In this document: positions 43,031 through 46,383 of the stretch, one piece after another | Position numbering within the stretch: the first letter of the stretch is position 1 | Layout: each line of letters opens with the position of its first letter | NCBI GenBank assembly: GCA_016929395.1 | Contig: JAFGIX010000011.1 | Coordinates: forward strand, 1 to 58,034 | DNA length: 58,034 nt | Direction of reading: 5' to 3' | Source: Candidatus Zymogenus saltonus | Lineage (GTDB): Bacteria > Desulfobacterota > Zymogenia > Zymogenales > Zymogenaceae | The notes under the pieces: generated by a model | Database searches by the model: none | What the model was told of the DNA's origin: nothing | What the model saw: the letters and a program-made list of their open reading frames with translations, nothing else | Made by a program: the position numbers and the translations under genes

Positions 43031-43058
43031 TTGACAATGCCCGTAATCCTGATATTAT
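43031..43058 (+). promoter_or_regulatory. Promoter of the Cys-Ala-tail/radical SAM pair
   Basis: TTGACA (43031-43036), a 16-nt spacer and TATTAT (43053-43058, five of six bases) lie about 190 nt upstream of the GTG start at 43246. Confidence 0.65.
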
Positions 43059-43245
43059 TGAATTCACTGCGGCAGGTCGACTTCCGGCTTTTCGCAAGGG
43101 GTCCGGCTCTGTCAAAGTCTTTTTTTGCGACGGCAGGGCGTGAAGGGAAGTTGAGCGAAGGCCGTTATTTATTGATGGGGGGGGAGACGCCCTTCCCCTT
43201 TTAAATAAGCAAGTTTAAATGAAACCAAATATCAGGAGCAATAAG

Positions 43246-44910
43246 GTGAAAAGGAAAATATTGTTGGGGATGGCGGTAGCCTTTGCGGCCTTGATGATTA
43301 TATCACTTTCGCCCGGCATCGCCGCGGCCCAGGATTACTCCTTTTCGGTCCCGAAAAACTACTCGGATGTCTATATCAATCAAGACGGATCGATAACGAT
43401 AATATACGGCCTTACGTTCAGCTGCGATTCCGGCGCCCACCCGATAGACATCGTCGACATCGGGCTTCCGAACGGCAACTACAACCTGGGAAGCGCCAAG
43501 GCATCGATCAACAACGTTCCCCTCACCGACATCCGTAAATCGACCTACGTTACCGGGGTGGAGGTTCACCTGGGGGCGCAGACCATCCAGCCGGGGCAGA
43601 CCGGCACTCTGAACTTCTCGATCATCCACCCGAAGATGCTGTTCACCGACGAGGAAAAGGAGGACTACGCCTCGATGGAGTTTTCGCCCACGTGGTACGG
43701 CTCCGCCTACGCCCACGGCACGACCGACCTGAGGCTTAGCGTCCACTTCCCGAAGGGAGTTACCCCGGACGAGACCAGATATCACGAGGGTGGCGGAAAG
43801 AGGAAGTTCGATTCCACGAGATTCGACGAAGATGGAAGGATCGTCTTCACGTGGATAAATGGGTCCGCAAGCCCGTCAACCCAGTACAAATTCGGCGTGT
43901 CGTTCCCCAGCATGTACGTCGCCGAGGGGGCGGTGTCGAAGCCTCCCAAATTCTCCTTTTTCGAGATTATAATCGCTGTTGTGGTTATGCTGGTCACAAA
44001 TCTCCCCATTATGATATTCGGCGGCTTCTTCTTCATAATAATCTGGTCAATAATCAGGAGCAAGATGCGAAGGATGAAGTATTTCCCCTCCAAGGTCTCC
44101 ATTGAGGGCGTCGGGATCAAGCGGGGACTGACAGCCCCGGAGGCGGCGGTTCTCCTGGAGCTTCCCCTCGACAAGGTCGTCACCATGATCCTCTTCGGCC
44201 TTATGAAGAAGAACGTCGTCAGGGTGGAGGACATGGGAAAGGGAAAGATCCCGAAGGTGATGGCCATCGATGGGGCGAACAAGTCCGGCTTGAGGGACTA
44301 CGAGATCGAGTTTTTGGAGGCGATAAAGCCGAACGGTGAGGCGGACTTGAAAAAGATGAGTACGACAATGGTAAAAATGATCAAGGACGTCGATAAGAGG
44401 ATCAAGGGGTTCTCCAGGAGGGAGACGAAGGATTACTACCAGCATATCGTAGACCTCGCCTGGAGGCACGTAACGACCGCCAACACCCCGGAGCTTTTGG
44501 GCGAGGAGTGGAGCGACAAGCTCGAGTGGATAATGATGGACAAGAAGTTCGGCGATCGCATGGAGGAAACCTTCACCGGCCGGGAGGTGGTCGCCCCCCG
44601 CTGGTACACCCGCAACTACTATCCGACTACTTCCGGGGCCGGGGATGTCTCCGCCAAGGGTGTCGGGGAGTCTATGTCCAAGACGTTCACATCGGGGGCG
44701 GACCTGGCGAACAAGATGGTCACCGGCTTCGAGAACTTCTCCGGTAATTTTATCAGGAACATCGAGTCGTTCGCGTCCGGCGTCACGAGGGTTACCAATC
44801 CGGCGCCCCAGAGCTCTGGCAGCTACAGCAGGAGCAGCGGCGGCGGCGGATGCGCCTGCGCCTGTGCCTGCGCCGGCTGTGCCTGCGCCTGTGCGGGAGG
44901 GGGTAGATAG
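43246..44910 (+). CDS. DUF2207-like membrane protein with a C-terminal Cys-Ala repeat tail
   Basis: The product has 554 aa. A signal peptide (residues about 1-30, ending GIAAAQ) leads to an extracytoplasmic beta-rich domain (YSDVYINQDGSITIIYGLTF, about 40-230). A hydrophobic segment (FFEIIIAVVVMLVTNLPIMIFGGFFFIIIW cut in two here: FFEIIIAVVVMLVTNLP, then IMIFGGFFFIIIW; about 244-273) precedes a cytoplasmic part with LTAPEAAVLLELPLDKVVTMILFGL. The last 23 residues are Gly-rich and hold seven Cys (536, 538, 540, 542, 545, 547, 549), each followed by Ala. GTG 43246 is chosen for AGGAG 7 nt upstream. The layout resembles DUF2207 proteins; the cysteine tail is the unusual part. The radical SAM gene starts 2 bp downstream. 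Confidence 0.8.
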   Translation: MKRKILLGMAVAFAALMIISLSPGIAAAQDYSFSVPKNYSDVYINQDGSITIIYGLTFSCDSGAHPIDIVDIGLPNGNYNLGSAKASINNVPLTDIRKSTYVTGVEVHLGAQTIQPGQTGTLNFSIIHPKMLFTDEEKEDYASMEFSPTWYGSAYAHGTTDLRLSVHFPKGVTPDETRYHEGGGKRKFDSTRFDEDGRIVFTWINGSASPSTQYKFGVSFPSMYVAEGAVSKPPKFSFFEIIIAVVVMLVTNLPIMIFGGFFFIIIWSIIRSKMRRMKYFPSKVSIEGVGIKRGLTAPEAAVLLELPLDKVVTMILFGLMKKNVVRVEDMGKGKIPKVMAIDGANKSGLRDYEIEFLEAIKPNGEADLKKMSTTMVKMIKDVDKRIKGFSRRETKDYYQHIVDLAWRHVTTANTPELLGEEWSDKLEWIMMDKKFGDRMEETFTGREVVAPRWYTRNYYPTTSGAGDVSAKGVGESMSKTFTSGADLANKMVTGFENFSGNFIRNIESFASGVTRVTNPAPQSSGSYSRSSGGGGCACACACAGCACACAGGGR

Positions 44911-44912
44911 AT

Positions 44913-46283
44913 ATGAAGATCAAGGATTTCTTTAAGAACGAAAAGCCGCTTGAGGCGGGAATATACCACAGCAGGGTCACGGGGGAGGACGGGAGCAACT
45001 ACAGGCTCCACCTGAGAATCATGGAGTGGGGTAACTCCATCCTCTCCATCAACGCTGCGAGGATACTGCACCTGAACCCCACAGCCACCGAGTTCGCCAA
45101 GCTCATCGTAGAGGGTAAGTCGGAAGAGGAGACGGTCAAGATCGTCAAGGGGCGCTACCGGGGCGTGAAGAAGGAGACGCTGAGGGAGGAGTATGGAAAG
45201 CTCAAGGGCTTGATAGACTCGATGTCGATAATGGAGGACGTCTGTCCCATAACCTACCTCGACGTGGAGAGGATCGAACCGTTCTCGACGCCGTCGGACG
45301 CCCCCTACAGGATGGACCTCGCCCTTACCTACAGGTGCAACAACGACTGCGGCCACTGCTACGTCGATCGGGACAAGGGGGACGGATCCGGCGAGCTGAC
45401 CACCGACCAGTGGAAGAGGGTCATGGAGAAGCTCTGGGGGCTGGGGATATTCCATGTGGCCTTCACCGGCGGGGAGGCGACGATGAGGGACGACCTCCCG
45501 GAGCTCGTCGGCATCGCCGAGGACCTGGGGATGGTCGCGGGACTCCTGACAAACGGCAGGAGGCTCATGGACAAAAAATACATCGGAAGGCTGATAGAGG
45601 AGGGAATAGACTATTTCCAGATAACGCTCGAGTCGTCCGACAAAAATATCCACAACAAGATGGTCGGGGTAAAGGGAAATGTCGATGCCTGGGATGAGAC
45701 GGTTAAGGGGATAAAGAACGCGGCGAAATCGCCCATACACACGATAACCAACACAACCATAACCAAGCACAACGTGAAGACTTTGGGAAAGACCGTGGAT
45801 TTCATCGCGACCCTGGGCGTTGACGCCTTTGCCATGAACGGGATAATCTACTCAGGGGGCGCCAAGGGGGGGGAGATGGCGATAAGCGAGGACGCCCTTC
45901 CCGAAATCCTCCAAGAGGTGATCGATTCCGCCGAGAGAAACGACCTCAGGTTTATCTGGTATACGCCCACGCAGTACTGCAAGTTCAACCCGGTAGAGAT
46001 GAATCTGGGGATGAAGCAGTGCACCGCCGGGAAGTTCAACATGTGCATCGAGCCTAACGGCGATGTCCTGCCGTGCCAGAGCTACTACGAGCCGGTTGGA
46101 AATATCCTCAAAGACGATTGGGAGGCGATATGGAATCACCCGCTCCTCGTCTCCATCAGAAATCGGGAGTATATCATGGACAAGTGCCGCGAGTGCGAGG
46201 AGCTGGCCCTCTGCGGCGGCGGCTGCCCGCTGGAGATAAAAAACGGCGAGTTTCTCTGCTCCGAGAGCATGAGCAATCCGTGA
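44913..46283 (+). CDS. Radical SAM/SPASM peptide-maturase-like protein with PqqD/RRE-like N-terminus
   Basis: The product has 456 aa. Residues about 45-115 resemble a PqqD-like recognition element (LHLNPTATEFAKLIVEGKS followed by EEETVKIVKGRY). The radical SAM core has CNNDCGHC (Cys142, 146, 149) and the FTGGEAT segment. The C-terminal SPASM region has CTAGKFNMCIEPNGDVLPC, then CRECEELALCGGGCPLE and a last Cys before the end, enough to bind two auxiliary clusters, as in PqqE and sactipeptide or ranthipeptide maturases. ATG 44913 uses GGAGGGGG inside the end of the upstream gene. The likely substrate is the Cys-Ala tail of that neighbour, inferred from context. Confidence 0.88.
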   Translation: MKIKDFFKNEKPLEAGIYHSRVTGEDGSNYRLHLRIMEWGNSILSINAARILHLNPTATEFAKLIVEGKSEEETVKIVKGRYRGVKKETLREEYGKLKGLIDSMSIMEDVCPITYLDVERIEPFSTPSDAPYRMDLALTYRCNNDCGHCYVDRDKGDGSGELTTDQWKRVMEKLWGLGIFHVAFTGGEATMRDDLPELVGIAEDLGMVAGLLTNGRRLMDKKYIGRLIEEGIDYFQITLESSDKNIHNKMVGVKGNVDAWDETVKGIKNAAKSPIHTITNTTITKHNVKTLGKTVDFIATLGVDAFAMNGIIYSGGAKGGEMAISEDALPEILQEVIDSAERNDLRFIWYTPTQYCKFNPVEMNLGMKQCTAGKFNMCIEPNGDVLPCQSYYEPVGNILKDDWEAIWNHPLLVSIRNREYIMDKCRECEELALCGGGCPLEIKNGEFLCSESMSNP

Positions 46284-46345: not shown

Positions 46346-46383
46346 AAGGGGCCGGCCGATTATTTTGCCGGGCCCCTTTTTTA
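46346..46383 (+). terminator. Intrinsic terminator after the radical SAM gene
   Basis: AAGGGGCCGGC (46346-46356) pairs with GCCGGGCCCCTT (46367-46378) with one bulged base, followed by a run of T. It closes the two-gene unit. Confidence 0.85.

Follow-up and report, generated by a model that had tools for sequence, protein, structure and literature searches.

A Cys-Ala-tailed membrane protein and its neighbouring radical SAM/SPASM enzyme in Candidatus Zymogenus saltonus and other bacteria

Within the 58,034 nucleotides of contig JAFGIX010000011.1 of Candidatus Zymogenus saltonus analysed here (positions 1 to 58,034, in the following called the window), a gene for a 554-residue membrane protein ends in a run of Cys-Ala codons and is followed at once by a gene for a radical SAM/SPASM enzyme. 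Is the tail the substrate of this enzyme, as put forward in an original prediction made from the letters of the DNA, and what could be made of it? We consider it probable that the enzyme does modify the Cys-Ala tail and that the two genes encode a maturase and the substrate dedicated to it.

The tail and its enzyme across genomes

The presumed substrate is encoded at 43246..44910 (forward strand, as are all window features given below), based on the reading frame and orthologues. The gene starts with GTG at 43246, with AGGAGC 6 nt upstream, and its TAG stop codon occupies 44908-44910. The tail (44851..44907), the presumed site of modification, has 19 residues, 7 of them Cys, and reads CACACACA-G-CACACA-GGGR; this is (CA)4-G-(CA)3-GGGR, preceded by GGGG, with CACACACAGCACACAGGGR as the terminal stretch. 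The ATG of the enzyme gene follows at 44913, 2 bp past the membrane protein gene. Its product, the presumed tail maturase, has 456 residues (44913..46283; assigned by Pfam, AlphaFold2 (AF2) and structure search), and its ribosome-binding site GGAGGGGG (44896..44903) lies inside the tail codons. A signal-peptide membrane protein with four Cys-Ala pairs, a Gly and three more pairs, the radical SAM enzyme 2 bp later and the ribosome site within the tail had all been predicted and were confirmed.

A ribosome site lies within the tail codons, and in two genomes the contig breaks off in the tail; DNA repeats, or the translation signal of the next gene, might therefore have produced the tail as a by-product. 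However, 29 proteins of the CA-GGGR type agree in all of their last 17 residues, although the third codon positions vary freely: the 27 distinct DNA 51-mers (27/27) all give one and the same 17-residue sequence. These proteins have a mean identity of 0.98 in the tail vs 0.47 in the body. In the tail, exactly three CA pairs and GGGR always make up the C-terminal half, whereas the number of CA pairs in the N-terminal half ranges from three to five. A DNA-repeat artefact is ruled out by this free synonymous variation; in the 3.76-Mb genome of the window, the pattern of the CA run, TGYGCNTGYGCNTGYGCN, has its sole match inside the tail (control, 0). As for the ribosome site, the enzyme gene is downstream of the membrane protein gene in most clades, including the Bacillota with tails CACACACACASSGGCT or CACACACACAGGGGCT, but upstream in the CAVS clade of the Bacillota, whose proteins carry CACVSCACACVSCACACACAGGGGAGC. 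The tail is kept in this flipped order and is therefore not a by-product of the ribosome site of the next gene. The by-product explanation is already refuted by the present data, and we assign it practically no weight.

Tail and enzyme were sought in both directions. In the phylum of the window genome, the full enzyme is found in only 4 of 297 genomes, all of one family (~695 bits), and the next-best match (179 bits) is without the N-terminal domain; in this family, 4/4 genomes carry the identical tail on the adjacent membrane protein. The membrane-protein profile matches 20 of 301 genomes of Chloroflexota, and all 20 proteins end with (CA)3-5-G-(CA)3-GGGR and have the enzyme adjacent. Conversely, the enzyme profile picked out 16 full-length enzymes (576-661 bits) in 251 genomes, all within genomes that also have the membrane protein. 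For 249 genomes of Bacillota, a blind search for tail DNA and an independent search with the enzyme profile led to the identical 10 genomes (enzymes at 477-633 bits), an overlap with a chance of 5e-18 if the genomes were independent, which they are not; in one of the 10 (G594), the contig ends within the tail. The pairing was also found in 4/4 genomes of Actinomycetota; in one of them, the contig stops within the tail. With generic radical SAM proteins (≤196 bits), the match covers the core only, and no tail was found among the neighbours of two that were examined. In Bacillota, the tail pattern also matched short reading frames that were out of frame and had no enzyme beside them, and permeases of TRAP-type transporters with an internal CACACAG. 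The pairing of tail and enzyme is strict in both directions, and the two-gene unit is present in at least four bacterial phyla. The co-occurrence check suggested with the prediction thus turned up neither a tail homologue that lacks a neighbouring SPASM enzyme nor another conserved substrate in the genomes searched.

Two side observations concern the tail motif. In Actinomycetota genome G951 (L177/L178), both genes are frame-broken and only CACACAGGGR is kept, which reflects joint decay or an assembly error. The TRAP-type-like permeases of two Bacillota loci (L051, L071) have an internal VACACACAG motif and are unrelated to the tail-enzyme system.

The tails fall into classes. Beyond the CA types, diverged enzymes (~290-340 bits) adjoin related membrane proteins that end with ACHSACHDACHSACHS... 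(CHSA class), found in Chloroflexota (G075, G200) and Bacillota (G373, G460). Membrane proteins with ACHSACHDACHS... tails and at least 9 Cys stand beside the diverged enzyme clade at L144:2784-4229 (reverse strand), L138, L162 and L163. When 52 enzymes are placed in a maximum-likelihood tree, four changes, the minimum, account for the five labels CA-GGGR, CA-GGCT, CAVS, CHSA and generic; tail class tracks enzyme clade perfectly. Profile-profile comparison indicates that the membrane proteins are homologous across the tail classes: alignment A2 matches A6 over the full length (E=1e-79), A7 in the extracytoplasmic domain (E=2e-21) and A8 in the C-terminal domain (E=1.6e-17). In two Bacillota genomes, CACVSCACACVSCACACACAGGGGAGC is followed by a TPM-like region, confirmed by Pfam in L082 (TPM_phosphatase, 9e-9). 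The tail is mid-protein in these cases (L082:5367-7439 and L083:5446-7284, both reverse strand) and a LemA-like gene adjoins.

The enzyme and its probable chemistry

Pfam recognizes Radical_SAM (E=6e-23) and SPASM (E=2.8e-11) in the window enzyme. The cluster motif CX3CX2C (C142-NND-C146-GH-C149; 45336..45359) is invariant in a 15-member alignment. The full set of SPASM cysteines is present (C370, C388, C425, C428, C434, C438 and C452; 46020..46268; Pfam and the same alignment) with the pattern CX9-15GX4C...CX2CX5CX3C...C; C370, C388 and C438 are invariant, and the last SPASM Cys is missing in many relatives. Residues 16-105 (44958..45227) are predicted to form an N-terminal RiPP recognition element (RRE; RiPP, ribosomally synthesized and post-translationally modified peptide) of the PqqD type. 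This rests on a sub-threshold PqqD match and on the AF2 model (predicted local distance difference test score (pLDDT) 75, predicted template modelling score (pTM) 0.80), in which four strands forming beta-hairpins and then three helices give the RRE layout, and the radical SAM and SPASM parts come after it. A clade relative (L144) is above the PqqD cut-off (38 bits, 2.2e-9). The predicted SPASM end is thereby borne out, and the PqqD/RRE-like N-terminus is probable.

The description of the enzyme as PqqE-like was right in so far as PqqE is among the structural matches, but SkfB and SuiB are closer by solved structure. SkfB (Z 23.9, 340 residues aligned) and SuiB (Z 23.0, 375 aligned) match over nearly the full length, followed by PqqE and CteB; TigE (8vpo) is also among the matches. 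A profile search agrees, with SkfB at 1.6e-35 and then PqqE, SuiB and CteB. The enzyme reaches no NCBIfam cut-off, the best being NirJ2 (134.6 bits vs 500); bits and cut-offs are 125/381 for PqqE, 99/300 for SkfB, 68/850 for AlbA, 91/265 for mycofactocin and 70/400 for ACGX. A generic PqqE was rejected on this basis. SkfB carries an RRE, and in CteB a substrate cysteine binds at an open site of auxiliary cluster I (PMC6231123).

Because the structurally closest RiPP maturases make thioether cross-links, thioethers of any regiochemistry would be the likeliest chemistry on the tail, a choice that we make with a little less than even confidence. The chemistry of SPASM enzymes on repeats is varied, and TvgB makes cyclopropylglycine on TVGG repeats (PMC9062424). 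With TigE among the structural matches, the tail might instead undergo Ala or Cys epimerisation, formation of C-C bonds, or Cys oxidation or decarboxylation. Such products are conceivable but somewhat doubtful: every Cys is strictly conserved in both the CA and the CHSA tails, which are built differently, and of the nearest folds, SkfB, SuiB and CteB, SkfB and CteB form thioethers.

Runs of CXCXC resemble copper-thiolate metallothioneins. The tail could thus be an array of unmodified thiolates, with Cu(I), Zn or an iron-sulfur cluster bound to it, next to a SPASM enzyme that supplies or senses the metal or acts elsewhere, the pairing reflecting a shared metal response. Bufferins modified by MNIO enzymes do chelate copper (PMC12452194). 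An enzyme with a predicted RRE whose clade follows the tail class, however, has the signature of a peptide maturase, and CX3CX2C is invariant in the maturase, the catalytically dead paralogue being an additional gene. In operons of Chloroflexota, this second radical SAM-like gene keeps the RRE and lacks CX3CX2C and the SPASM cysteines (for example L085:9702-10841, 33% identity to the window enzyme). The pseudo-maturase comes after the pair in all 16 Chloroflexota genomes of the enzyme search except G075, where the second match is the CHSA enzyme. We regard an unmodified metal array as unlikely.

Topology, expression and neighbouring genes

The membrane protein has a signal peptide of about residues 1-28 (43246..43329; ...GIAAA|QDY; hydropathy and sequence), an extracytoplasmic beta-sandwich domain in the AF2 model (residues ~30-227, 43333..43926) and a single transmembrane stretch (residues ~238-272, 43957..44061; hydropathy), followed by RSKMRRMK. 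Net charge right after the membrane stretch is positive in nearly all CA-GGGR relatives. A cytoplasmic location of the C-terminus with the tail, on the same side as the enzyme, is well supported by these sequence features, because a signal peptide, one transmembrane stretch and a positive flank predict it. The hydrophobic core is 33 residues long in the window protein vs 25-30, fitting one transmembrane helix, in most relatives; it could in principle be a short hairpin instead. After the membrane comes a cytoplasmic domain (EGVGIKRGLTAPEAA...; 44074..44610) that, judged by profile-profile comparison and by relative L144, appears to be distant kin of the TIGR04222 domain. It is followed by a linker with a conserved TNPxP motif and a Gly/Ser stretch (44695..44850; alignment of the tails of relatives), a possible recognition segment for the enzyme. 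In one Eubacterium relative (RGIG546, L019), the substrate has a zinc ribbon between membrane stretch and tail (SSCASSCASSCACASSCACACACASSGRAGC), and the enzyme stops early in the SPASM region.

The family of the membrane protein had been called DUF2207-like. This holds only indirectly: the relative L019 has a weak match to DUF2207 (Pfam PF09972; 0.02, under the cut-off) and the CHSA relative L144 a match to TIGR04222 below the cut-off (23.3 bits, 4.3e-5; cut-off 43 bits), but the window protein has no hit to either, nor to any other Pfam or NCBIfam model, at E<1. No PDB chain matches it by sequence. A structure search with the AF2 model of the extracytoplasmic domain gave Ost1/ribophorin I (Z 17) and the N-domain of M1 aminopeptidases (Z ~12), a modelled resemblance that gives no sure pointer to function.

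Candidates for both the predicted promoter before the pair and the terminator after it were found. A sigma70-like site TTGACA-16-TATTAT (43031..43058) agrees with the consensus at 11 of 12 positions and is a consensus match only. Downstream, a G+C hairpin with a T-run (46346..46382; -21 kcal/mol, z -2.7) resembles a terminator; the call rests on fold and T-run, the consensus scanner not listing it. A G-rich hairpin followed by TTTT (43177-43198) in the untranslated leader of the pair could be an attenuator; Rfam gave nothing upstream of the pair.

Relatives have further genes nearby. A class-I methyltransferase gene is near the pair in G002, G003, Actinomycetota and several Chloroflexota (L092:10372-11112, L093:8628-9455, L174:724-1467, L085:12506-13267). 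The window genome has it on another contig (G000:C20:21213-21965, 55% identity), where, as in G002 and G003, an MMPL/RND-like gene adjoins it. In Chloroflexota and in the family of the window genome (G002, G003), a gene for a small zinc-ribbon protein with two transmembrane helices that ends with EEPKW or EDPKW lies directly upstream of the pair (L085:5154-5549, L092:4929-5324, L093:4476-4871); it is not upstream of the pair in the window. With such genes near the pair and a membrane protein that has no assigned function, the tail might merely recruit the enzyme to the membrane, the true substrate being another component of the cell. But no other gene adjoins the enzyme in all clades, and the number and spacing of the cysteines are conserved far beyond the needs of docking. 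Recruitment alone is very improbable.

The proposed maturation would then proceed as follows. The membrane protein would be exported via its signal peptide and anchored by one transmembrane helix, leaving the TIGR04222-like domain and the Cys-Ala tail in the cytoplasm. The enzyme would use its N-terminal RRE to dock on this protein, with the TNPxP/Gly-rich linker as a possible site, and its radical cluster would act repeatedly on the Ala-Cys units of the array to give a set of Cys thioether cross-links. It is tempting to speculate that the mature tail is a metal- or redox-responsive cytoplasmic module of an envelope protein; this is a guess.

Several points weigh against tail modification by the enzyme. 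The PqqD match of the window enzyme (E=6.6e-4, 20.4 bits) is just under the Pfam cut-off of 23.4, and the quality of the AF2 model for the membrane protein is modest (pLDDT 65.5), the models of both proteins being built from shallow alignments of the window proteins and related loci. The sampled genomes share ancestry and their counts are not independent. To our knowledge, no known maturase substrate matches the Cys-Ala array exactly, and the chemistry is extrapolated from the fold. The methyltransferase conserved in relatives and the Cys-less pseudo-enzyme mean that the system may include more than these two genes. Of the proposal that the enzyme acts on the cytoplasmic tail, two-way co-occurrence, flipped gene order, the match of class and clade and the topology stand; the modification itself, its chemistry and a metal cluster are inferred.

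Comparison with known systems

Anaerobic sulfatase-maturating enzymes are SPASM enzymes that act on protein-sized substrates. The novelty seen in the original prediction was too broadly framed, as SPASM enzymes on protein-sized substrates and Cys-tailed membrane proteins beside modifying enzymes are already known (QhpD/QhpC, TIGR04222/MNIO).

Most similar on the substrate side are the TIGR04222/MNIO (DUF692) pairs (PMC12452194), in which a large membrane protein with a C-terminal low-complexity tail rich in Gly, Ser and Cys is encoded adjacent to a modifying iron enzyme. There is also distant domain homology (L144 at 4.3e-5, below the cut-off; A2 vs A8 at 1.6e-17). However, the enzyme described here is a radical SAM/SPASM protein with its own predicted RRE and not an MNIO, and the tail keeps strictly to CA or CHSA repeats. 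The TIGR04222 tails are predicted to be periplasmic, whereas the present one would be cytoplasmic via a single transmembrane stretch, and their pairing is loose where the present one is strict.

On the enzyme side, the maturases of sactipeptides and ranthipeptides (SkfB, AlbA, CteB) and their relatives SuiB and PqqE share the radical SAM core, SPASM cysteines, an adjacent Cys-bearing substrate and probably the N-terminal RRE. Their substrates are short leader-core peptides, whereas here it would be a 554-residue membrane protein with a permanent C-terminal core: there is no short precursor with a cleavable leader, and the constant neighbour of the enzyme is the membrane protein with its tail at the extreme C-terminus. 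Unlike those systems, the pair has no gene for a protease or exporter, and the enzyme is below every NCBIfam cut-off. QhpD, which acts on QhpC of quinohemoprotein amine dehydrogenase (PMC8172795), is likewise a SPASM enzyme that makes intraprotein Cys thioethers on a protein that is not a natural product, but QhpC is a soluble periplasmic enzyme subunit with Asp/Glu acceptors and another spacing. NCBIfam ACGX (TIGR04340) pairs a SPASM enzyme, by name, with an Ala-Cys repeat peptide, and the CHSA tails resemble ACGX repeats; the present enzymes, however, score 64-97 bits vs a cut-off of 400.

There is precedent for each half: protein substrates for QhpD, Cys-tailed membrane proteins for TIGR04222/MNIO and repeat motifs among SPASM substrates. 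The combination appears to be undescribed; a literature search found no description of the membrane protein/SPASM pair, and no NCBIfam family covers it. In the literature searched, two papers mention TIGR04222, and MNIO enzymes are the subject of one. The pair looks like a new branch among the systems that modify peptides, one whose target is a full-size membrane protein and not a small secreted peptide. In at least four phyla, Chloroflexota and Bacillota among them, radical SAM/SPASM peptide chemistry would reach beyond short precursors of natural products to a fixed C-terminal tail that belongs to a large membrane protein. For work on RiPPs, the pair offers a maturase-substrate family that is defined, can be tested and has highly repetitive substrates. 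Rather tentatively, one may picture a widespread RiPP-like class on the protein scale, in which a permanent, enzyme-built array of modified Cys serves as membrane-bound metal/redox module in the cytoplasm, with CA, CA-VS and CHSA sub-classes each having their own SPASM clade and Chloroflexota adding the Cys-less pseudo-maturase. Since the pair runs parallel to the MNIO/TIGR04222 pairs, the comparison suggests that iron enzymes of more than one kind were recruited for the modification of Cys tails in related membrane proteins, and this parallel bears on what such tails do.

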